Shown in pieces: positions 1,571 through 28,854 of a stretch of DNA of 43,574 bases. Made by a program: the position numbers and the translations under genes. Location: NCBI GenBank assembly GCA_013288485.1, contig JABDBW010000013.1:1-43574 (forward strand), given 5' to 3'. Source of the DNA: Bacteroidota bacterium. Its GTDB lineage: Bacteria > Bacteroidota > Bacteroidia > Sphingobacteriales > Sphingobacteriaceae. The notes under the pieces were generated by a model. That model had not been told where the DNA came from. It was given only the letters and a program-made list of their open reading frames with translations, and made no database searches. Each line of letters begins with the position of its first letter. Position 1 is the first letter of the stretch.

Positions 1571-1665
1571 AGGTAAAAGGTTAAAGCTGAAAGGTAAAAG
1601 GCTTGACTAACTAAATTAAGAAAATCGGTGAAATCACTAAAACAATCAGTGAAATCACACAAAAA
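1571..1665. repeat. Heptamer-phased spacer repeats, ilvD-ilvB
   Basis: Directly after the ilvD stop, 1576-1603 reads as four diverged 7-nt units of the type AAAGGTA/AAAGGCT. A second block follows: the 14-mer AATCGGTGAAATCA at 1623-1636 recurs with one change at 1644-1657, exactly 21 nt (three heptamers) later. The same 14-mer occurs again before ilvC at 4197-4210. No terminator or promoter is evident. Confidence 0.7.
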
Positions 1666-1674
1666 TAAAACAGT

Positions 1675-3414
1675 ATGGAAGTTGCACAACAGGAAATACT
1701 AAACAAAACCGCAGAGAAGGAAACCGTAAATATTTTGGGTTCTGTTGCCTTATTGGAAGCATTGATAGCGGAAGGTGTTGATACCATCTTTGGTTATCCG
1801 GGAGGCGCCATTATGCCTATTTATGATGCTTTGTATGATTATAACGACAAGCTCGACCATATCCTGGTAAGGCATGAGCAGGGCGGCATACATGCCGGTC
1901 AGGGTTATGCGCGTACATCAGGAAAAGTGGGTGTAGTATTCGCCACAAGCGGACCGGGCGCTACCAACCTGGTAACAGGTTTGGCCGATGCACAAATAGA
2001 CAGCACGCCTTTAGTATGTATAACCGGGCAGGTATTCGCCCATTTATTAGGGACGGATGCTTTCCAGGAAACAGATGTGATCAATATTACCAACCCGGTT
2101 ACCAAGTGGAACTACCAGGTAACTGATGCTACCGAAATTCCGGAAGTATTGGCCAAAGCATTTTATATTGCCAAAAGCGGCAGGCCGGGGCCGGTATTAA
2201 TTGATATTACCAAGAACGCCCAAATTCAGCTGTTTGATTACGAAGGTTATACGCCTTGTAACCATATCCGCAGTTACCGGCCAAAGCCAATAGTGCGTAT
2301 GCCATACGTTGAGCAGGCTGCCGAATTAATTAACAAAGCCAAAAAACCATTTATTATATGGGGCCAAGGCGTTGTATTAGGCAGCGCCGAACAGGAGTTT
2401 AAAACTTTTGTTGAAAAAAGCGGTATTCCCGCCGCCTGGACCATTTTAGGCGCGGGCGCTATTCCAACAAGCCACCCGCTTAATGTGGGGATGCTGGGTA
2501 TGCACGGAAACTATGGCCCGAATGTATTAACCAACGAGTGCGATGTATTGATTGCTATCGGGATGCGTTTTGACGACCGTGTTACGGGCCGCTTGGATAA
2601 ATATGCCAAACAAGCCAAGGTTATCCATTTGGATATTGACCCTGCGGAAATAGATAAAAATGTTAAAACAACCGTACCCGTTTGGGGCGATTGTAAAGAA
2701 ACCCTTCCTTTGTTAACCGCGTTGGTTGAACAAAAACAACATACCGCGTGGTTAAATAAATTCAGGGGTTATACAAAGCAGGAAGTTGAGGCGGTAATTC
2801 ATGATGAATTAAACCCAACCTCGGGCGAAATGACCATGGGCGAAGTGATCAAACAACTAAACGACCTTACCCACGGCGAAGCCATAATTGTTACCGATGT
2901 TGGCCAGCACCAAATGGTGGCCTGCCGGTACGCACAGTTTAATAATACACGCAGCAATATTACCAGCGGCGGCCTCGGTACTATGGGATTTGCATTGCCC
3001 GCGGCCATAGGCGCTAAATACGGAGCGCAAGACAAAACTGTTGTGGCTATCATAGGCGATGGCGGTTTCCAAATGACCTTACAGGAACTGGGCACTATTA
3101 TGCAAACAGGGGTTGATGTAAAGATCATCATTCTTAACAACCGTTTTTTAGGTATGGTGCGCCAATGGCAGGAGTTGTTTAATGACCGCAGATATTCATT
3201 TGTTGATATTGAAAGCCCTGATTTTGTGGCAGTAGCCGCGGCTTACCGTATACCGGGTAAATGTGTGAACGAGCGGGCAGAGTTGCAGGGTGCATTAAAG
3301 GAAATGATAAATAGTAAAGGTTCGTTCCTGCTTGAAGTAATGGTAACCAAGGAAAATAATGTGTTCCCAATGGTGCCGCAGGGATGCAGTGTAAGTGAGA
3401 TAAGGCTAAAATAA
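1675..3414 (+). CDS. ilvB: Acetolactate synthase, large catalytic subunit
   Basis: Thiamine-diphosphate enzyme that condenses two pyruvates to acetolactate, or pyruvate with 2-oxobutyrate to acetohydroxybutyrate, the first common step of the valine/isoleucine pathway. At 579 aa it has the normal length. The N-terminal PYR domain carries the catalytic-glutamate region (HEQGGIHAGQGYAR), followed by the ATSGPGATN motif. The C-terminal PP domain has the ThDP/Mg signature GDGGFQMT followed by LNNRFLGMVRQWQ, typical of AHAS. The ATG at 1675 fits the family start. The regulatory subunit ilvN follows after a repeat-filled spacer, so the holoenzyme is encoded together. The name ilvB is used generically; ilvI or ilvG would be equally defensible. 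Confidence 0.97.
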   Translation: MEVAQQEILNKTAEKETVNILGSVALLEALIAEGVDTIFGYPGGAIMPIYDALYDYNDKLDHILVRHEQGGIHAGQGYARTSGKVGVVFATSGPGATNLVTGLADAQIDSTPLVCITGQVFAHLLGTDAFQETDVINITNPVTKWNYQVTDATEIPEVLAKAFYIAKSGRPGPVLIDITKNAQIQLFDYEGYTPCNHIRSYRPKPIVRMPYVEQAAELINKAKKPFIIWGQGVVLGSAEQEFKTFVEKSGIPAAWTILGAGAIPTSHPLNVGMLGMHGNYGPNVLTNECDVLIAIGMRFDDRVTGRLDKYAKQAKVIHLDIDPAEIDKNVKTTVPVWGDCKETLPLLTALVEQKQHTAWLNKFRGYTKQEVEAVIHDELNPTSGEMTMGEVIKQLNDLTHGEAIIVTDVGQHQMVACRYAQFNNTRSNITSGGLGTMGFALPAAIGAKYGAQDKTVVAIIGDGGFQMTLQELGTIMQTGVDVKIIILNNRFLGMVRQWQELFNDRRYSFVDIESPDFVAVAAAYRIPGKCVNERAELQGALKEMINSKGSFLLEVMVTKENNVFPMVPQGCSVSEIRLK

Positions 3415-3418
3415 GGTG

Positions 3419-3501
3419 AAAGGTAAAAGCCGAAAGCTAAAAGGTAAGAATAACCTAATGACAGCGAAGCGAAATGACTAATGACCAATGACTAATGACT
3501 A
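3419..3501. repeat. Two heptamer arrays, ilvB-ilvN spacer
   Basis: 3419-3446 is four 7-nt units of AAAGGTA type, resembling the array after ilvD. 3474-3501 is four near-perfect ATGACTA units; the second reads ATGACCA. An in-frame ATG at 3495 belongs to the last unit and is probably not the ilvN start. Confidence 0.75.
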
Positions 3502-3512
3502 ATTTTAAGACA

Positions 3513-4118
3513 ATGAGCAATCAGGATATAGAAAAGCAGGAATATAACATCACCGTTTATACAGAAAACCAGATAGGTTTACTGAGCCGGATAGCTATTA
3601 TATTCACACGCCGTAAAATAAATATTGATAGTTTGAATACTTCTCCGTCGGAGATCGAGAGTATTCACCGCTTTAATATCGTAATAACCGAATCGGAAGA
3701 AGTGGTACGTAAGCTTACCCGCCAGATAGAAAAACAGGTGGAAGTATTAAAAGTGTATTACCATACCAATGAAGATGTGATATGGCAGGAACTGGCGCTT
3801 TACAAAGTATCAACCGATGTAATTGCCGAGAAGGTAAGCGTTGAGCGTTTGCTGCGCGAAAATGGCGCGCGGGCTGTGGTTATCCGTAAAGATTATACAG
3901 TTTTTGAAACAACGGGCCATCGCGAAGAAACTGATAACCTGATCAATATATTACAGCCTTACGGACTGATAGAATTTGTGCGCAGCGCCCGGGTAGCGAT
4001 CATTAAAAACAGTGAAGGTTTTAACGCTAAACTACGTGAATTTGAACGCCTGGAACCGGGTGAGGAAGTAATAGAGAATGAATATTTAAATAAAGGAGCG
4101 AAAGTATTCACAATGTAA
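3513..4118 (+). CDS. ilvN: Acetolactate synthase, small regulatory subunit
   Basis: Regulatory subunit of acetohydroxyacid synthase; it activates the catalytic subunit and usually confers valine feedback. The N-terminal ACT domain is clear (YNITVYTENQIGLLSRIA, then RRKINIDSLNTSPSE). A C-terminal ALS-small-subunit domain follows, containing GARAVVIRKDYTVFETTGH and FVRSARVAIIK. I place the start at ATG 3513 (201 aa) rather than the in-frame ATG at 3495, because the latter lies inside a tandem ATGACTA repeat and adds only six non-family residues. It sits directly downstream of its partner ilvB. Confidence 0.95.
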   Translation: MSNQDIEKQEYNITVYTENQIGLLSRIAIIFTRRKINIDSLNTSPSEIESIHRFNIVITESEEVVRKLTRQIEKQVEVLKVYYHTNEDVIWQELALYKVSTDVIAEKVSVERLLRENGARAVVIRKDYTVFETTGHREETDNLINILQPYGLIEFVRSARVAIIKNSEGFNAKLREFERLEPGEEVIENEYLNKGAKVFTM

Positions 4119-4122
4119 GCTG

Positions 4123-4210
4123 AAAGGCGAAAGCTAAAAGCAAAAAGTAAAAAGTAAATTAAAACATAATTAAGTAACATAAACCAACCGATGAAAAATC
4201 GGTGAAATCA
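4123..4210. repeat. Heptamer array, ilvN-ilvC spacer
   Basis: 4123-4157 is five consecutive 7-nt units beginning AAAG, ending in two identical AAAGTAA units. At 4197-4210 the 14-mer AATCGGTGAAATCA repeats the copy at 1623-1636 upstream of ilvB. The spacer therefore combines the two word types of the ilvD-ilvB spacer in the same order. Confidence 0.72.
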
Positions 4211-4229
4211 AACAATAAAAACTAAAACA

Positions 4230-5288
4230 ATGGCAAAATTAATTTTCGGCACTACTGAAGAAAATGTAGTAACCCGCGAGGAGTTCCCTTTATCAAAGGC
4301 ACAAAGCATTTTAAAAAATGAAGTAGTAGCTGTTATCGGCTATGGCGTTCAGGGCCCCGGCCAGGCGCTTAATCAAAAAGACAATGGTATCAACGTTATT
4401 GTTGGCCAACGTAAAAATTCAAAAACATGGGATAAAGCTATCAGCGATGGCTTTGTACCGGGCGAAACCCTTTTTGAAATTGAAGAAGCATTACAAAGAG
4501 GGACCGTAATTTGCTATTTATTAAGCGACGCGGCACAAATTGCTTTATGGCCAACGGTTAAAAAACACTTAACCCCAGGCAAAGCGCTATATTTTTCACA
4601 TGGCTTTGGTATCACTTTTAATGAGCAAACCGGCATTGTTCCGCCAAAGGATGTTGACGTGTTTTTAGTTGCTCCTAAAGGATCAGGCACTTCATTGCGC
4701 CGTATGTTTTTACAGGGCCGCGGCTTAAATTCAAGCTACGCGATATTCCAGGATGCTACAGGGCGTGCTTTCGACCGCGTTATCGCTTTAGGTATAGCTG
4801 TGGGCAGCGGTTATTTATTTGAAACCGATTTCCGTAAAGAAGTATTCAGCGACCTTACCGGCGAACGTGGTACGCTGATGGGATGTATACAGGGTATTTT
4901 TGCTGCACAGTATGAAGTATTGCGCAGTAATGGCCACTCCCCTTCCGAGTCGTTTAACGAAACAGTTGAAGAATTAACCCAATCATTAATGCCATTGGTT
5001 GCTGAAAACGGCATGGACTGGATGTATGCCAATTGCTCAACAACCGCACAACGCGGTGCGCTGGATTGGTGGAAAAAATTCCGCGATGCTACAAAACCGG
5101 TATTTGAAGACCTGTACAAAAGCGTGGCAACAGGTGTTGAATCGCAAAAATCAATTGATTCAAACAGCAAAACTGATTACCGCGAAAAATTAGACGCGGA
5201 ATTGAAAGAACTGCGTGATAGCGAGCTATGGCAGGCAGGTAAAACTGTACGCAGTTTAAGGCCGGAAAACCAGGCTGTAGAAGCGTAA
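4230..5288 (+). CDS. ilvC: Ketol-acid reductoisomerase (NADP+)
   Basis: Isomerises and reduces acetolactate and acetohydroxybutyrate to the dihydroxy acids, between AHAS and IlvD in valine/isoleucine synthesis. The Rossmann nucleotide-binding motif VIGYGVQGPGQA lies near residues 35-46, followed by VIVGQRKNSKTW. The C-terminal knotted domain contains the metal/substrate region (FRKEVFSDLTGERGTLMG) and a conserved C-terminal block (DWMYANCSTTAQRGALDW). At 352 aa it is close to the length I associate with Bacteroidota KARIs. The start ATGGCAAAATTA fits the family. It lies between ilvN and leuA in the operon. Confidence 0.96.
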   Translation: MAKLIFGTTEENVVTREEFPLSKAQSILKNEVVAVIGYGVQGPGQALNQKDNGINVIVGQRKNSKTWDKAISDGFVPGETLFEIEEALQRGTVICYLLSDAAQIALWPTVKKHLTPGKALYFSHGFGITFNEQTGIVPPKDVDVFLVAPKGSGTSLRRMFLQGRGLNSSYAIFQDATGRAFDRVIALGIAVGSGYLFETDFRKEVFSDLTGERGTLMGCIQGIFAAQYEVLRSNGHSPSESFNETVEELTQSLMPLVAENGMDWMYANCSTTAQRGALDWWKKFRDATKPVFEDLYKSVATGVESQKSIDSNSKTDYREKLDAELKELRDSELWQAGKTVRSLRPENQAVEA

Positions 5289-5291
5289 TAT

Positions 5292-5361
5292 CAGTCTTGA
5301 GTTTTGAGTCTTAAGTAGTGAGCAAGCTACTTAAGACTTTAGACTCAGGACTTTAGACTAA
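5292..5361. repeat. Ten heptamers with hairpin, ilvC-leuA spacer
   Basis: Seventy nucleotides that can be cut without remainder into ten 7-nt words of GAGTCTT or AGACTTT type. The two word types are reverse complements, so the array folds back. A perfect 11-bp stem pairs 5308-5318 (GTCTTAAGTAG) with 5327-5337, with an 8-nt loop. Flanking words extend the pairing imperfectly. No U-tract follows, so it does not look like an intrinsic terminator; a role in mRNA processing or stability is possible. Confidence 0.78.
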
Positions 5362-5382
5362 CTATTAAATACTTAAGAAACT

Positions 5383-6546
5383 ATGTTACACGATCCCAAC
5401 CGAGTCTATGTTTTTGATACCACGCTTCGCGATGGCGAGCAGGTACCGGGCTGTCAACTGACTACCCCAGAGAAAATAGAAATAGCCCATGAACTGGAAG
5501 CATTGGGCGTGGATATTATTGAAGCCGGTTTCCCTATATCAAGCCCCGGCGATTTTCAAAGCGTGGTAGAAATATCAAAAGCTGTGAAAAACCCAACCGT
5601 ATGCGCCCTTACCCGCGCTATAAAAGGGGACATAGATGTTGCTGTTGAGGCATTAAAATACGCCCGGCGTCCACGAATACACACCGGTATCGGATCGTCA
5701 GACATGCACATTAAAAACAAATTTAACAGCACCCGCGAGGAGATATTGATACGTGCTGTTGAAGCTGTAAAATATGCCAAAAAATTTGTTGAGGATATTG
5801 AGTTTTATGCCGAGGATGCCGGCCGTGCCGACATTCATTTCCTGGCAAAAATGATAGAGGCTGTTATTGCAGCGGGCGCTACGGTAGTAAATATACCTGA
5901 TACCAACGGCTACTGCCTGCCTGATCAATACGGCGAAAAAATAAAATTTTTAAAAGAGAACGTAAAAAATATTGATAAAGCCGTTATTTCGGTGCATTGC
6001 CATAATGACCTGGGTTTAGCCACTGCAAACTCGGTAGCCGGCCTGCAAAATGGCGCCCGCCAAATTGAGGGTACTATAAACGGAATTGGTGAGCGGGCGG
6101 GCAATACTTCTATAGAGGAAGTAGTGATGATTTTAAAAACACATCAAAATTTAGGCTTGCATACCAACATCAATACGAAGAATTTTTATGAGCTGAGCCA
6201 AATGGTAAGCACACAAATGCGTATGCCGGTACAGCCCAATAAAGCCATAGTTGGCAGCAATGCTTTCGCGCATAGTTCGGGTATACACCAGGACGGGTTC
6301 CTGAAAAATCGCGAAAATTATGAGATCATCAGGCCCGAAGATGTTGGTTTCCCTAACGCGAGTATAGTGCTTACCGCGCGCAGCGGCAGGCACGCCTTAA
6401 AGTTCCATTTGGAGCGTTTAGGGTATAACCTGAGCAAAGAAGAATTAGCTAATGCTTATCATCGCTTTTTGACATTGGCTGATAGTAAATTAGATATAAC
6501 TGATGAAGATCTGCTAATATTGGCAGGCGACAAGAAATTTGCATAA
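5383..6546 (+). CDS. leuA: 2-Isopropylmalate synthase, short form without regulatory domain
   Basis: Condenses 2-oxoisovalerate with acetyl-CoA, the committing step of leucine synthesis. The catalytic TIM barrel is complete, with [13 protein letters not shown] at the N terminus, the metal-ligand motif [14 protein letters not shown], and [15 protein letters not shown] in the linker region. The protein stops at 387 aa, right after the helical linker ([17 protein letters not shown]). Full-length LeuA of about 510-520 aa begins its leucine-binding dimerisation domain there. The stop is followed by a normal intergenic spacer and I see no frameshifted remnant, so the truncation looks native. Homocitrate synthase is an alternative, but the leuCDB context argues for LeuA. 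Confidence 0.92.
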
Positions 6547-6568
6547 CCTGCCTTTTCAAAAAGAGGTG

Positions 6569-6582
6569 AATTATAAATTATA
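6569..6582. repeat. Two AATTATA heptamers, leuA-leuC spacer
   Basis: The 41-nt spacer holds two adjacent identical heptamers (AATTATA) just upstream of the leuC start. In such an AT-rich stretch this could be chance. It is listed because every other spacer of the operon also shows a 7-nt step. Confidence 0.4.
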
Positions 6583-6587
6583 AAAAA

Positions 6588-7994
6588 ATGAGCAAGACAT
6601 TATTTGATAAAGTGTGGGACACACATGTGGTACGTAAAATTGAAGGCGGCCCCGATGTACTTTTTATCGACCGCCATCTTATACACGAAGTTACAAGCCC
6701 GGTAGCCTTTTTAGGGTTAAAGAGCCGCGGAATAAAGGTTTTATACCCCAACCGTACGTTTGCTACGGCCGATCATAACACGCCAACCATTAACCAGCAT
6801 TTGCCGGTTGCCGATCCGCTTTCGGCTAACCAATTAAAAGCGTTGGAATCAAATTCTAATGAGTATGGCATAAGCTACTGGGGGTTGGGCCATCAAAAAA
6901 ATGGTATCGTACACGTTGTTGGTCCTGAATATGGCATTACGCAGCCGGGCGCTACGATTGTTTGCGGCGACTCGCATACCTCTACCCACGGCGCTTTTGG
7001 TGCCATAGCTTTTGGTATCGGCACTTCCGAAGTAGAAATGGTTTTGGCCACGCAATGTATTATGCAGCCAAAACCTAAAAAAATGCGCATTAATATCAAC
7101 GGAAAATTAGGGGTAGGCGTTACACCGAAAGATGTAGCCTTATTTATTATTTCGCAGTTGACCACTTCGGGTGCGACCGGGTATTTTGTTGAATATGCCG
7201 GTGATGTTTTTGAAAACATGAGTATGGAAGGCCGCATGACGGTTTGTAATTTAAGTATTGAAATGGGCGCCCGCGGCGGCATGATAGCCCCGGATGAAAC
7301 CACGATAAATTATGTAAAAGGCCGTGAATTTACCCCTAAAAGCGAAGCCTGGGATAAAGCGCTTGCCTATTATAAAACATTAAAGACCGATGCCGATGCT
7401 GTTTTTGATAAAGAACTGACATTTGATGGCTCCGCTATTGAACCCATGATAACCTACGGAACAAACCCGGGCATGGGCATGGGAATTTCTCATGACATTC
7501 CTGATGCTGCCCATGCGGAAGGCGGCGCGGCAACCTATGCCAAATCCCTGGGCTATATGGGTTTCCATGAAGGCGATTCAATGATAGGCAAACCGGTTGA
7601 TTTTGTGTTTGTTGGCAGTTGTACCAATGGCCGCATCGAAGATTTCCGGGCGTTTACTTCGTTAGTAAAAGGTAAACATAAAGCTGCTAATGTTACGGCC
7701 TGGTTGGTGCCCGGATCGCACATTGTGGAGGCACAAATTAAAGAAGAAGGCTTGCTGGATATTTTAACGGAAGCCGGGTTTGAATTGCGCCAGCCGGGCT
7801 GCTCGGCTTGCTTAGCGATGAACGATGATAAGGTGCCCGCCGGCAAATACGCGGTAAGTACCTCGAACAGGAATTTTGAGGGCAGGCAGGGCCCCGGTTC
7901 ACGAACCATGTTGGCCAGTCCGTTAGTTGCCGCAGCGGCGGCAGTTACAGGTAAAGTTACAGACCCGAGAACGTTAATTGAAGAATTGGTTTAA
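6588..7994 (+). CDS. leuC: 3-Isopropylmalate dehydratase, large subunit
   Basis: Aconitase-superfamily subunit that, with LeuD, isomerises 2- to 3-isopropylmalate through a [4Fe-4S] cluster; the same enzyme can process citramalate. The 468-aa length matches LeuC. Cluster-ligand cysteines are C345 (GSCTNGR) and C405/C408 (GCSACLAMN). Other family motifs are TVADHNTPT-like (ATADHNTPT), [13 protein letters not shown], and the C-terminal [14 protein letters not shown]. The start follows an A-rich stretch. It is cotranscribed with leuD. Confidence 0.97.
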
Positions 7995-8002
7995 TAGATA
8001 AT

Positions 8003-8067
8003 AGTTCATGGATCATAGTTCATAGCTAAAATTTAAAAGCACCATGAACCATGATCCATGAACCATA
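8003..8067. repeat. Inverted heptamer repeat, leuC-leuD spacer
   Basis: Left arm 8006-8024 and right arm 8044-8062 are reverse complements with one mismatch in 19. Both arms are built from 7-nt words (GTTCATG/GATCATA on the left, CCATGAA/CCATGAT on the right). Essentially the same right-arm sequence recurs at 27692-27714 between rplY and prs with one difference in 23 positions, so this is a dispersed repeat family. An in-frame ATG at 8058 falls inside the right arm. Confidence 0.82.
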
Positions 8068-8078
8068 AACAACAAATT

Positions 8079-8675
8079 ATGGCTTACGATAAATTTAACA
8101 TACTAAAAAGCACCGCGGTTCCGCTTCCGATAGAAAATATAGATACCGACCAGATCATCCCTGCGCGCTTTTTAAAAGCGACAGAACGGGTTGGATTTGG
8201 CGATAATCTTTTCCGCGACTGGAGATATAATCCCGATAATACACCCAAAAAAGACTTTGTTTTGAACAACCCGGTTTTCAGCGGTAAAATTTTAGTGGGC
8301 GGTAAAAACTTTGGCTCAGGTTCGTCCAGGGAACATGCCGCGTGGGCCATTTATGATTATGGTTTCCGGTGCGTTGTATCCAGCTTTTTCGCTGATATTT
8401 TCAGGGGTAATTGCCTAAACATAGGCGTGCTGCCTGTACAGGTAAGCCCTGAATTTGCTGAAAAAATATTTGCGGCAATTTTTGCTGACCCAAAAACGGA
8501 AATTGAAGTAAATTTACCGGCGCAAACCATCACACTTTTAGCCACAGGCGAAAAAGAAACGTTCGACATTAATTCGTACAAAAAAAATAATATGCTTAAT
8601 GGCTTTGATGATATTGACTATCTGCAAAGCATAAAACCTGAAATTGAGGAGTTTGCAGCGCATCTCCCACTTTAA
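8079..8675 (+). CDS. leuD: 3-Isopropylmalate dehydratase, small subunit
   Basis: Swivel-domain partner of LeuC in leucine synthesis and, by inference here, in citramalate isomerisation. The start ATG 8079 (198 aa, [17 protein letters not shown]) is preferred over the in-frame ATG 8058, which lies in the spacer repeat. Family motifs are [13 protein letters not shown], the substrate-recognition segment [13 protein letters not shown], and [14 protein letters not shown] normal-length small subunit. Confidence 0.96.
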
Positions 8676-8690
8676 AATATAAACGAATAA

Positions 8691-8785
8691 CACTTTGTGC
8701 CCTCTGCGACTTTTCTTAGTGCCCTCTGTGGTTAATTTGTAATTTAAACACAGAGAGCACTAAGGTTCACAAAGTACACTGAGGT
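8691..8785. repeat. Dyad-symmetric spacer repeat, leuD-cimA
   Basis: The left half carries CTTTGTGCCCTCTG and CTTAGTGCCCTCTGTGG. The right half (8748-8784) carries the complementary words in five 7-nt steps such as CACAGAG and CAAAGTA. The arms 8715-8733 and about 8747-8764 pair over most of their length. I have seen comparable CTTTGTG/CACAGAG intergenic repeats in many bacterial genomes (recollection, not a search). Its end abuts a TTG codon at 8787 that opens the cimA frame. Confidence 0.7.
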
Positions 8786-8810
8786 ATTGAACCAGCCGAA
8801 ACCAAAAATA

Positions 8811-10328
8811 ATGGACAGAAGAAAAATAGAGATAATGGACACTACGCTTCGCGATGGGGAACAAACATCGGGTGTATCTTTTTCCATTTCAGAAAAACTA
8901 ACCATAACCCAATTGTTATTGGAAGAGCTTAAAGTGGACAGGGTTGAGATCGCTTCCGCGCGCGTATCGGAGGGAGAATTTCAGGCTGTTAAATCTATTT
9001 TAAACTGGGCAGAAACAAACGGTTATGCCGACAGGATAGAAGTGTTGTCGTTTGTAGATAACGGCGTTTCCATCGACTGGATGGTAAAATCGGGCGTTAA
9101 GGTTCAGAACCTGTTAACCAAAGGCTCGTTGAACCATTTAACACACCAGCTTAAAAAAACACCTGAACAGCATTTTTCGGAAATAAAGCAAGTAATTGAC
9201 CTGGCAACCAGTAAAAACATTGCTACCAATGTGTACCTGGAAGATTGGAGCAATGGTATGCGCAATTCGCCTGGTTATGTTTTCCAATACTTAGATTTCC
9301 TGGTTACACAGCCTGTAAAAAGGATAATGCTGCCGGATACGCTCGGAATTTTAACCCCGGAGGAAACCTTTAAATTTTTAACATCAATAAAATCAAAATA
9401 CCCAACTATTCATTTTGATTTCCACGCACATAATGATTACGACCTGGGCACGGCCAATGTTCTGGAGGCCGTTAAAGCCGGAATAAATGGTTTGCATTTA
9501 ACCGTAAACGGCATGGGTGAGCGGGCAGGAAACGCCGCAATGGCCAGCGCTATTGCTGTAATTCATGATTTTGCGCCCCACGTTGAATTACGGCTCAAAG
9601 AATCTTCCATTTATTCGGTGAGTAAACTGGTTGAAACCTTTTCGGGTGTCCGCATTCCTTCTAACAAGCCTATTGTTGGTGATAATGTGTTTACACAAAC
9701 AGCCGGTATACATGCTGACGGCGACAATAAAAACAATCTATATTTCAATGATCTCCTTCCCGAGCGGTTTGGCAGAAAGCGCGAATATGCACTCGGAAAA
9801 ACATCAGGCAAGGCAAACATTGAAAAAAACCTGCAGGAATTGGGGTTGAAACTAAACGACGCCGACCTGAAAAAAGTTACCCAGCGCGTTATTGAATTAG
9901 GCGACAGGAAAGAAACCGTAACTAAAGAGGACCTCCCTTACATTATCTCTGATGTGCTGGATAGCAGCCTTTATGGCGAAAAGGTTATTGTAGAATCGTA
10001 TGTATTGATGAATTCTATGGGCCTGCGTCCTTCGGCAACCATTTCTGTGCGTATTGATGGCGAAAAGTTTGAAGAGAACGCGCAGGGCGATGGCCAGTTT
10101 GATGCCTTTATGAACGCGCTCGCCAATGTTTATACCAGGAAAAACCGATGTTTGCCAAAGCTGATAGATTACGCGGTGCGGATAGCCCCCGGCAGTAGCT
10201 CCGACGCCTTGTGCGAAACGATTATTACATGGCAAACAGATAAGAAAAAATTTATAACCAGGGGGCTCGATTCAGACCAAACGGTTTGCGCTATTAAAGC
10301 TACCCAGAAAATGCTGAATATTATTTAG
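8811..10328 (+). CDS. cimA: Probable (R)-citramalate synthase with regulatory domain
   Basis: DRE-TIM acyltransferase, proposed to condense pyruvate with acetyl-CoA to (R)-citramalate, the entry to threonine-independent isoleucine synthesis. From ATG 8811 (505 aa) the barrel has the catalytic R14-D15 in TLRDGEQT, HAHNDYDLGTAN as metal site, and GMGERAGNAA. The text resembles Leptospira CimA as I recall it, e.g. DRVEIASARVSEGE, NLLTKGSLNHL and NVYLEDWSNGMRNSP. L79, L102 and Y142 align with that enzyme's recalled pyruvate pocket (Leu81/Leu104/Tyr144). A C-terminal LeuA-type allosteric domain (about residues 385-505) is present. The frame opens at TTG 8787, but ATG 8811 fits the family better. 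It sits between leuD and leuB, whose enzymes complete the route to 2-oxobutyrate. Automatic annotation would probably call it isopropylmalate synthase. Confidence 0.85.
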   Translation: MDRRKIEIMDTTLRDGEQTSGVSFSISEKLTITQLLLEELKVDRVEIASARVSEGEFQAVKSILNWAETNGYADRIEVLSFVDNGVSIDWMVKSGVKVQNLLTKGSLNHLTHQLKKTPEQHFSEIKQVIDLATSKNIATNVYLEDWSNGMRNSPGYVFQYLDFLVTQPVKRIMLPDTLGILTPEETFKFLTSIKSKYPTIHFDFHAHNDYDLGTANVLEAVKAGINGLHLTVNGMGERAGNAAMASAIAVIHDFAPHVELRLKESSIYSVSKLVETFSGVRIPSNKPIVGDNVFTQTAGIHADGDNKNNLYFNDLLPERFGRKREYALGKTSGKANIEKNLQELGLKLNDADLKKVTQRVIELGDRKETVTKEDLPYIISDVLDSSLYGEKVIVESYVLMNSMGLRPSATISVRIDGEKFEENAQGDGQFDAFMNALANVYTRKNRCLPKLIDYAVRIAPGSSSDALCETIITWQTDKKKFITRGLDSDQTVCAIKATQKMLNII

Positions 10329-10356
10329 AGTCAGGAATTAAGAAACAAGAATCAAG
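10329..10356. repeat. Heptamer array, cimA-leuB spacer
   Basis: Directly after the cimA stop, four 7-nt units follow in phase. The last three share the ending AAG (AATTAAG at 10336, AAACAAG at 10343, AATCAAG at 10350). The array fills most of the 42-nt spacer before leuB. No dyad symmetry here. Confidence 0.6.
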
Positions 10357-10370
10357 ACATATATATCAAA

Positions 10371-26854: not shown

Positions 26855-26855
26855 G

Positions 26856-26995
26856 CCCCCTAACCCCCTAAAGGGGGGATTTTTAATTTGCGTATTGTAA
26901 GATGCTAAGTTAAAAGTAATATCAAATAAAAAGCGATAAGTTTAAAACCTATCGCTTTTACTCCTCCATTATTCCCCCTTTAGGGGGTTAGGGGG
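26856..26995. repeat. Perfect 22-bp inverted repeat pair in rplY-pth spacer
   Basis: The left arm 26856-26877 and right arm 26974-26995 are exact reverse complements (22 of 22). Each is C- or G-rich with CCCCCTAACCCCCT at its outer end. The arms bracket the rplY terminator hairpin. The left arm starts 2 nt from the pth start codon and the right arm ends 6 nt from the rplY stop, so the element occupies almost the whole spacer. Each arm is also internally self-complementary (CCCCCTAAAGGGGG). It resembles CCCCTAA/TTAGGGG intergenic repeats I recall from other Bacteroidota genomes. Confidence 0.85.
26922..26960 (-). terminator. Intrinsic terminator-like hairpin after rplY
   Basis: A 9-bp stem AAAGCGATA (26930-26938) with TATCGCTTT (26950-26958) and an 11-nt loop, followed on the - strand by a T-rich stretch. 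It sits 44 nt after rplY and would attenuate or separate pth from rplY transcription. Confidence 0.7.
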
Positions 26996-27001
26996 CTGGG
27001 T

Positions 27002-27583: not shown

Positions 27584-27607
27584 TTGTTTTTATTTATTTA
27601 TGTTTAG

Positions 27608-27714
27608 TTCATGGTTCATAGATCATTGTTAATGGTGATCTACTACCCATAAGTCTTTATTCTAATTATTTTCATAGCAACATGCCCAACTATGAACCAT
27701 GATCTATGAACCAT
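27608..27714. repeat. Inverted heptamer repeat, prs-rplY spacer
   Basis: Arms ATGGTTCATAGATCAT (27611-27626) and its exact reverse complement (27699-27714) are 72 nt apart and made of 7-nt words (GTTCATG, GTTCATA and, on the other side, ACCATGA). The right arm 27692-27714 differs at one of 23 positions from 8044-8066 in the leuC-leuD spacer, 19 kb away. Confidence 0.85.
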
Positions 27715-27723
27715 CACCCACGC

Positions 27724-28783: not shown

Positions 28784-28854
28784 TTGCCCGACCAGGATTC
28801 GAACCTAGACAAACGGTACCAAAAACCGTCGTACTACCATTATACTATCAGGCA
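28784..28854 (-). tRNA. tRNA-Gln (anticodon UUG)
   Basis: A 71-nt cloverleaf. The acceptor stem TGCCTGA pairs with TCGGGCA (one G-U). The D arm contains TATAATGGTAGTA. The anticodon stem ACGGT/ACCGT encloses the loop TTTTGGT, placing UUG at 34-36. The T arm has GGTTCGAATCC. Discriminator A is at 28784. CCA is not encoded, since the next bases are CAT. Read on the - strand, it precedes prs. Confidence 0.95.

Follow-up and report, generated by a model that had tools for sequence, protein, structure and literature searches.

The closest described relatives of the sequences reported here are the intergenic heptads of Xanthomonas and Nostoc (GGGNATC and GGGGA(C/T)T), which have been explained by quadruplexes (Rehm et al. 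2015, PMC4692102; this source and those below are cited from excerpts). In Xanthomonas, GGGAATC forms paired convergent sites lying close together on opposite strands, with 70 cases in Xcc and 75 in Xac, and the rule for both genera is that the G strand is the coding strand just 3' of stop codons and the non-coding strand just 5' of start codons (PMC4692102). Direct repeats of TAACTGA have been reported from Beggiatoaceae, Cyanobacteria and, alongside other heptamers, five Bacteroidetes (MacGregor 2015, PMC4679880). We analyzed a contig of 43,574 nucleotides (JABDBW010000013.1, hereafter referred to as the window) from a draft genome of the Sphingobacteriaceae (G000; 2.50 Mb, 62% complete), which carries the co-oriented genes ilvD, ilvB, ilvN, ilvC, leuA, leuC, leuD, a citramalate-synthase-like gene (cimA) and leuB. 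The spacers of this ilv-leu operon contain runs of degenerate 7-nt words (hereafter heptads). Such runs share their period, are often paired as one word on opposite strands with the G-richer strand directed inward, and change their word at a fixed slot among relatives. An earlier reading of the letters alone (hereafter the first-pass annotation) had noted the 7-nt words and knew of no described heptad generality for Bacteroidota; heptads are nonetheless not new to the phylum, given the TAACTGA and other heptamers of MacGregor's five Bacteroidetes.

When the eight ilv-leu spacers were pooled, self-match at lag 7 was 0.473, versus 0.314±0.016 in dinucleotide shuffles (z 9.8, reached in none of 300), and was also elevated at lags 14 and 21. 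Operon coding DNA had no peak at lag 7 (0.246, z −2.2). Seven of the eight spacers carry a 7-nt run equaled by at most 5 of 1000 shuffles. The first-pass annotation, which had seen 7-nt words in all eight, was therefore right except for leuD-cimA, where 28 of 1000 shuffles match the best run and the inverted repeat lacks a clear phase. It had also seen a different word at most junctions; the words do differ, but AAAGG/AAAGC-type words occupy three junctions and recur elsewhere, accounting for 8 of the 21 strong runs of the own-genome sample and window together (read by eye). Stems unreached by any of 200 shuffles were found in three spacers (ilvC-leuA, leuC-leuD and leuD-cimA). The remaining 17 spacers of the window, when pooled, had no lag-7 excess (z 0.8), though the one at 27584-27723 alone has a z of 4.4.

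The period extends well beyond the operon. Stretches of six same-genus genomes, including 11 from G053 and 19 from G112, provided 1.75 Mb of sequence and 1082 intergenic regions (hereafter gaps; genes were called with our own caller, and any short genes overlooked would be counted within gaps). Strong runs at lag 7 were found in 45 of these gaps and in none after shuffling. Other lags gave fewer: lag 14 had 35, lags 8 and 16 had 11, lag 21 had 9, and the rest of the lags from 4 to 28 had 0-9. The view that the phase is common and the word is not was upheld outside the operon. In a comparison set of 63 loci, mostly from Flavobacteriaceae by record title (L018-L080, 799 gaps), lag 7 was the strongest of 11 lags, with 60 gaps versus 2.7 in shuffles, and lag 14 gave 34. 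Heptad density varies: among co-directional gaps, 15 of 149 hold strong runs in the genome of the window and 0 of 130 in G019. Repeat periods other than 7 exist in the sample of the window's own genome, where each of lags 8, 9 and 10 has a lesser excess (6 gaps with a score of at least 12, versus 21 at lag 7).

Many of the runs are arms of inverted pairs. Sixty non-redundant gaps with at least two runs contained 39 pairs consisting of one word on opposite strands, one direct pair and 24 unrelated pairs; the control searches for inverted run pairs gave none with reversed words and four with complemented words. In 36 of 37 inverted pairs, the 5' arm was the richer in G (G>C), the G-richer strand thus being directed inward. 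This strand was also directed away from the nearest open reading frame (ORF) in 119 of 139 runs (93/108 in co-directional, 16/20 in divergent and 10/11 in convergent gaps), and in 61 of the 75 runs of the genome samples alone. Searches of 120 same-genus genomes gave 372 matches in 71 genomes for inward AAAGG pairs (up to 17 overlapping matches within one genome) and 4 in 2 genomes for outward pairs. The corresponding values for AGTT pairs were 348 in 89 and 10 in 10, and those for the TTGA/TCAA backward controls of the AGTT searches were 145 in 64 versus 36 in 24. Genome counts are safer here than match counts, because the latter include overlapping sub-matches. The two arms share a word, but scarcely its copy-by-copy variants (z 2.5 in an unbiased test, with 20 pairs above and 16 below their own null; a mirror-arm test on pairs chosen by best stem gave an upward-biased z of 9.5). 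A common generating mechanism, as proposed in the first-pass annotation, is likely, but the opposed arms of fixed polarity had been missed.

The heptad vocabulary is limited and lineage-bound, and the words are not free to vary: the permuted core AGAAG, with the letters of AAAGG, formed pairs in none of the 120 same-genus genomes, and across species the words of one slot are more alike than those of different slots. In a phylum-wide draw, AAAGG pairs were found in 6 of 395 genomes, these being five same-genus genomes and one genome from another family (G416). The latter has AAAGGTG inverted pairs, with six overlapping matches, at three places among the matches listed, and either transfer or independent origin is possible. 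Over 25 arrays of AAAGGTA, the constancy of the seven phases was 0.96, 0.97, 0.97, 0.91, 0.76, 0.77 and 0.48. Mismatches clustered by phase in 86 arrays from Sphingobacteriaceae (z 4.7), but not in 59 arrays from L018-L080 (z 1.2). The order of unit variants was largely free (21 matches for the real order versus 9 for permuted orders, 6 versus 1 for exact matches), and the unit order as a copied phrase was rejected on this weak signal. A shared grammar was likewise rejected: expectation-maximization alignment of 65 distinct words gave AGTNNNN with a likelihood of 29.0, not significantly different from that of letter-permuted words (21.8±4.7, maximum 33.2). AGT was present in 24 of the 65 words, versus 13.6 expected.

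Orthologous slots are either empty (10-40 nt) or filled, and the spacers of close relatives are near-identical or different. In the closest sister locus (L116; IlvC 99% identical), the ilvC-leuA word is GAGATTT, whereas it is AGTCTTG in the window; leuC-leuD has AGTTCAT in both. The ilvD-ilvB and ilvN-ilvC slots are occupied by a CCCCCTAA-type palindrome in L116 and by heptads in the window. The ATGACTA run of ilvB-ilvN (3473..3503) exceeds its counterpart in L116 by exactly 21 nt, or three units, in the alignment. Across species, words from the same slot were closer (mean distance 2.96) than those from different slots (3.26; equaled in 0 of 1000 label shuffles), and 42 of 384 same-slot pairs were within one mismatch, versus 109 of 2267 different-slot pairs. 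The first-pass annotation had asked whether orthologous words are conserved, expand or change; they change between sisters at some slots, can differ in length by whole units, and keep some likeness by slot. Palindromes of another kind, CCCCCTAACCCCC...AAAGGGGG with an 8-nt direct repeat, occupy heptad slots in the ilv spacers of L116, L002, L007, L015 and L130; in the window they occur at 26855-27001, and their polarity is opposite, with the C-rich arm first. There are two kinds of LeuC within the genus (120 genomes), that of the window, with about 90-99% identity in the top genomes listed, and a type with 63-66% identity in many others, suggesting two ilv-leu operon histories.

We tentatively favor, at somewhat less than an even chance, the explanation that these degenerate runs, many of them arms of quasi-palindromes, perpetuate themselves through slippage in units of 7 nt and through template switches from one arm to the other. 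An inverted pair would fold back on single-stranded DNA during replication, and the 3' end of the new strand would then slip by one unit or copy the opposite arm in any 7-nt register. Such copying would hold both arms to one word, and not to copy-by-copy mirror images; the weak sharing of variants is to be expected if copying runs in free register. A change in one unit could spread, so that the word would drift while period and geometry persist. Polarity would result if the 3' arm is templated by the 5' arm and C is lost more often than the other bases, which is the weakest step. Template switching creates and repairs hairpins, and may account for a bias toward G-C over C-G pairs in stems (PMC8794818); the stems here have 277 G-C and 122 C-G pairs. 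G-U mismatches were not more frequent than A-C mismatches (35 versus 40), and pairing therefore looks to be kept at the DNA level. The model also draws support from the excess of inverted over direct pairs, from length differences in steps of 7 nt (8 of 40 alignment gaps, see below, and the 21 nt between the window and L116), from the likeness of words within a slot, and from the alteration of one phase across at least three consecutive units in 6 of 80 aligned run pairs (0.02 expected), as in ACTTCAG ACTAAAG ACTTTAG (L124) versus ACTTGAT ACTAAAT ACTTTAT (L125). If this copying model is true, a genome can keep structure at a site without keeping its sequence, which bears on the use of conserved intergenic hairpins as evidence of RNA function.

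Several observations weigh against self-copying. The vocabulary is shared across loci, and purely local copying is therefore insufficient: spread between loci or a favored word is needed. Between L005 and L007, with 99.1% mean protein identity, three of nine spacers are more than 0.9 identical and four are less than 0.6 identical, whole spacers having been swapped. An excess of U-A over A-U pairs, predicted by the same directional template-switch argument, was not seen (344 versus 379). There was no polarity in L018-L080 (five versus three pairs; 30 of 57 runs), and partnerless runs partly follow the polarity (23:2 for G>C runs, 10:16 for C>G runs). Finally, whereas the 39 inverted pairs were identified by word, the six one-phase changes were taken from the best ungapped alignments at any shift, and such alignments could also match unrelated runs that have similar words.

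Repetitive extragenic palindromic (REP) elements are short palindromes in gene gaps, present in tens per genome, with REP-associated tyrosine transposases (RAYT). It is unlikely, albeit with a real share of the probability, that the pairs are dispersed palindromes of this type, moved into gaps by a transposase such as RAYT, the heptads being accidental to the family sequence. The vocabulary common to different loci, the filled or empty state of orthologous slots and the swapping of whole spacers between sisters all fit such an origin, and AAAGG match counts track Y1-transposase counts in 99 near-complete genomes (Spearman 0.42, p 1.5e-5), a correlation that ignores phylogeny and genome size and has a p of 0.097 for presence/absence. 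In addition, GCAGCTA or TAGCTGC lies at the inner edge of several AAAGG pairs in G031, G117, G081 and G091 (among the matches listed; by eye). However, heptad pairs have no constant ends or length, with the order of their units mildly kept, the window's own genome (62% complete) yielded no Y1 match, and the two RAYT loci examined, of the many listed, adjoin other palindromes, with no heptad run scoring above 7.6. At these loci, RAYT (Y1 transposase) genes adjoin inverted TTTTCTACCGACGAGATGTTCC-type and TTTTCTACAAAGAGG-type palindromes (L268:161-221; L267, about 245-268 and 815-840), which are probably the REP elements of those RAYTs. Linkage by position was not retained: in G112, 3.5 kb separates one AAAGG pair from the Y1 gene, and none was as close among the other genomes listed (by eye).

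Selection for RNA hairpins between the genes of one transcript, protecting or separating messages, is less probable still. The arms do lie in transcribed gaps, the 5' arm starting at a median of 5-6 nt past the stop codon and the 3' arm ending 17-22 nt ahead of the next start in co-directional gaps, and several classes of palindrome alternate in the same slots. The operon is also a hotspot. With a score of at least 10, 5 of the 8 ilv-leu spacers of the window held runs, versus 16 of 116 co-directional spacers of its genome sample (p 0.0035; at a score of 12, 3/8 versus 14/116, p 0.078), and pooling of five genomes gave 16 of 40 versus 26 of 403 (p 3e-8; 10/40 versus 20/403 with a stricter threshold). 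Nevertheless, none of the nine ilv-leu spacers of G095 holds a heptad run, and the six-genome samples revealed no significant co-directional enrichment (34/687 co-directional, 5/174 convergent and 6/221 divergent gaps; p 0.31 and 0.19). An enrichment in co-directional gaps of the ilv-leu loci (48/357 versus 0/50, mostly one operon, with the duplicates L117, L119, L131, L133 and L135 of L001, L002, L005, L006 and L010 removed) was consequently dropped. The polarity persists in divergent and convergent gaps, and G-U did not exceed A-C on the transcribed strand, nor did it in a first subset (19 versus 37), which still held L119 and L131 and in which redundancy was cut by shared 25-mers. The stems are not terminator-like, with a T-run of at least four after 4 of 57 stems, versus 35 of 125 other co-directional stems (p 0.0009). 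L216 and L226, chosen for phrase matches, were excluded from the six-genome run counts and from the pair, hotspot, polarity-of-unpaired and grammar analyses.

Two further explanations are improbable to the same degree. The runs may be plain simple sequence repeats produced by tandem slippage, with pairing and polarity secondary, and we disfavor this. In many bacterial genomes, no unit length is more common among long simple repeats than 7 nt (Mrazek 2007, as cited by PMC4679880 and by PMC4692102), which counts for slippage, as do 7-nt indels and changes of copy number by whole units: in aligned orthologous heptad spacers, 8 of 40 alignment gaps of at least 3 nt were multiples of 7, versus 10 of 149 in other spacers, the p of 0.028 being indicative, since the pairs overlap. 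Plain slippage is nonetheless insufficient, because it does not produce the inverted pairs of fixed polarity to which many arrays belong; it is further countered by the single direct pair against 39 inverted ones, by the persistence of the polarity genome-wide and by the recurrence of words. Alternatively, each inverted pair may mark the site in a gene gap where a double-strand break was healed, the facing 3' ends having been extended by iterative 7-nt slippage on a short word and joined head to head, as in telomere fusion. Healing of this type would explain the inward polarity, the shared but non-mirrored word and the one-sided runs, and needs no reverse transcriptase. If it occurred, the inherited trait would be period plus polarity rather than sequence, with one rule for the heptads of Bacteroidota, Xanthomonas and Nostoc. 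Writing of the runs from an RNA template by a DRT10- or telomerase-type reverse transcriptase is very improbable and largely refuted as a present necessity: DRT10 adds tandem repeats, of 9 nt in one system (PMC12632851), and the head-to-head polarity and fixed core with variable positions resemble templated repeat addition, but RVT_1 matches, found in 58 of the 120 genomes, do not correlate with AAAGG pairs (Spearman 0.009, p 0.93), and 9 to 17 AAAGG matches are present in each of seven genomes that lack RVT_1 and are at least 90% complete.

The features of the window are listed in Table 1. The names of the ilv-leu genes are based on position and the first-pass annotation, and relatives were found by tblastn. 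The leuD start (8079) and the ilvN start (3495 or 3513) were set by eye, and leuD was placed by position in relatives. The ilvN start given by the ORF caller (3495) falls within the ATGACTA run; because empty-slot orthologs begin at ATGAGCAAT, here at 3513, the run contributes a further ATG upstream and in frame. Two copies each of a ATCGGTGAAATCA-type unit lie at 1624-1660 and 4187-4215, near the ilvB and ilvC start codons, and this unit is also present in the spacers of many relatives. A tRNA gene on the minus strand (28784-28854) was the sole match of the window in an Rfam scan.

Table 1. Heptad runs and inverted repeats of the window (scores with the number of shuffles reaching them; TRF, Tandem Repeats Finder).
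Location	Feature	Position	Strand	Remarks
ilvD-ilvB	AAAGG-type run	1571..1601	+	Begins at the first nt after the ilvD stop; no partner arm found; score 13.0, 3/1000; TRF period 7
ilvB-ilvN	AAAGG-type run	3415..3447	+	Immediately 3' of ilvB stop; run score 10.6; TRF
ilvB-ilvN	ATGACTA run	3473..3503	+	Run score 19.6, 0/1000
ilvN-ilvC	AAAGC/AAAGG-type run	4122..4158	+	Run score 19.0, 1/1000
ilvC-leuA	5' arm, word AGTCTTG	5293..5318 (run 5293-5316)	+	Run score 10.4, 1/1000; stem 16.0, 0/200
ilvC-leuA	3' arm, AGTCTTG on opposite strand	5327..5352 (run 5329-5359)	-	Stem with 5293-5318; inverted pair
leuA-leuC	AATTATA, 2.3 copies, weak	6569..6584	+	Run score 9.0, 5/1000
leuC-leuD	5' arm, word AGTTCAT	8001..8023	+	Stem 18.0, 0/200; run 7995-8076 score 24.4, 0/1000
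leuC-leuD	3' arm, AGTTCAT on opposite strand	8044..8066	-	Stem with 8001-8023
leuD-cimA	CTCTGTG-type inverted repeat, no clear 7-nt phase	8715..8764 (8715-8738 / 8741-8764)	.	Stem 16.5, 0/200; best lag-7 run 6.0, 28/1000
cimA-leuB	AAGAATC-type run	10335..10357	+	Run score 9.4, 0/1000
Outside operon	AGTTCAT-type inverted pair	27607..27720 (runs 27607-27636, 27688-27720)	.	Stem 18.5, 0/200; lag 7 z 4.4

Earlier accounts of heptads considered one word at a time, each explained by its word, as a quadruplex or a protein site. Here, the same period, convergent pairing and polarity accompany numerous words whose units contain one or two G, and word-specific explanations are therefore not general; that a third phylum, in which the words are poor in G, shares the polarity speaks against quadruplexes as the general cause. 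The system is measurable, in that the units keep their phase and direction through the sequence turnover that separates sister species, and empty slot states are known.

The heptads reported here resemble those of Rehm et al. in being 7-nt intergenic tandem units with conserved and variable positions, in forming convergent pairs and in having the G strand directed away from the nearest ORF, a rule absent from L018-L080. They differ in the multiplicity of their words, there being one G-tract word per genome in Xanthomonas and Nostoc. None of the window words AAAGGTA, AATGACT, AGTCTTG, AGTTCAT and AAGAATC contains GGG within its unit, unlike GGGNATC, whose G-tracts are able to form quadruplexes. 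The Nostoc heptads include few inverted pairs, and the excerpts of Rehm et al. give no word change at fixed slots (PMC4692102). Like the TAACTGA repeats, our heptads are intergenic and sparse across phyla, with shorter repeat-free spacers in close relatives and other heptamers in Bacteroidetes spacers. In MacGregor's account, as excerpted, TAACTGA is the one word studied; its repeats lie mostly just 5' of start codons and are interpreted as sites bound by protein, with one indirect repeat in the main genome (PMC4679880). TAACTGA is not among the window words, and it is present in locus L011 as an inverted pair after cimA. Template-switched quasi-palindromes (PMC8794818) have arms kept alike by copying between them, as proposed for the heptads, and a similar asymmetry of G-C over C-G, but their arms become mirror copies, whereas here the arms share a 7-nt word, apparently in free register. 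Unlike REP/RAYT elements, the heptad pairs have no constant palindrome, and the palindromes beside the two RAYT loci are of other kinds. The open-licence papers found on heptads with hairpins, in Bacteroidetes or in the host family, included none, as excerpted, with many words sharing period and polarity, and none of those on heptads had low-G words drifting or changing at fixed slots. Paired inverted heptads of such polarity have already been published for Xanthomonas (PMC4692102); with respect to the literature as excerpted, what is new here is the occurrence of many low-G words of shared period and polarity, and their drift at fixed slots.

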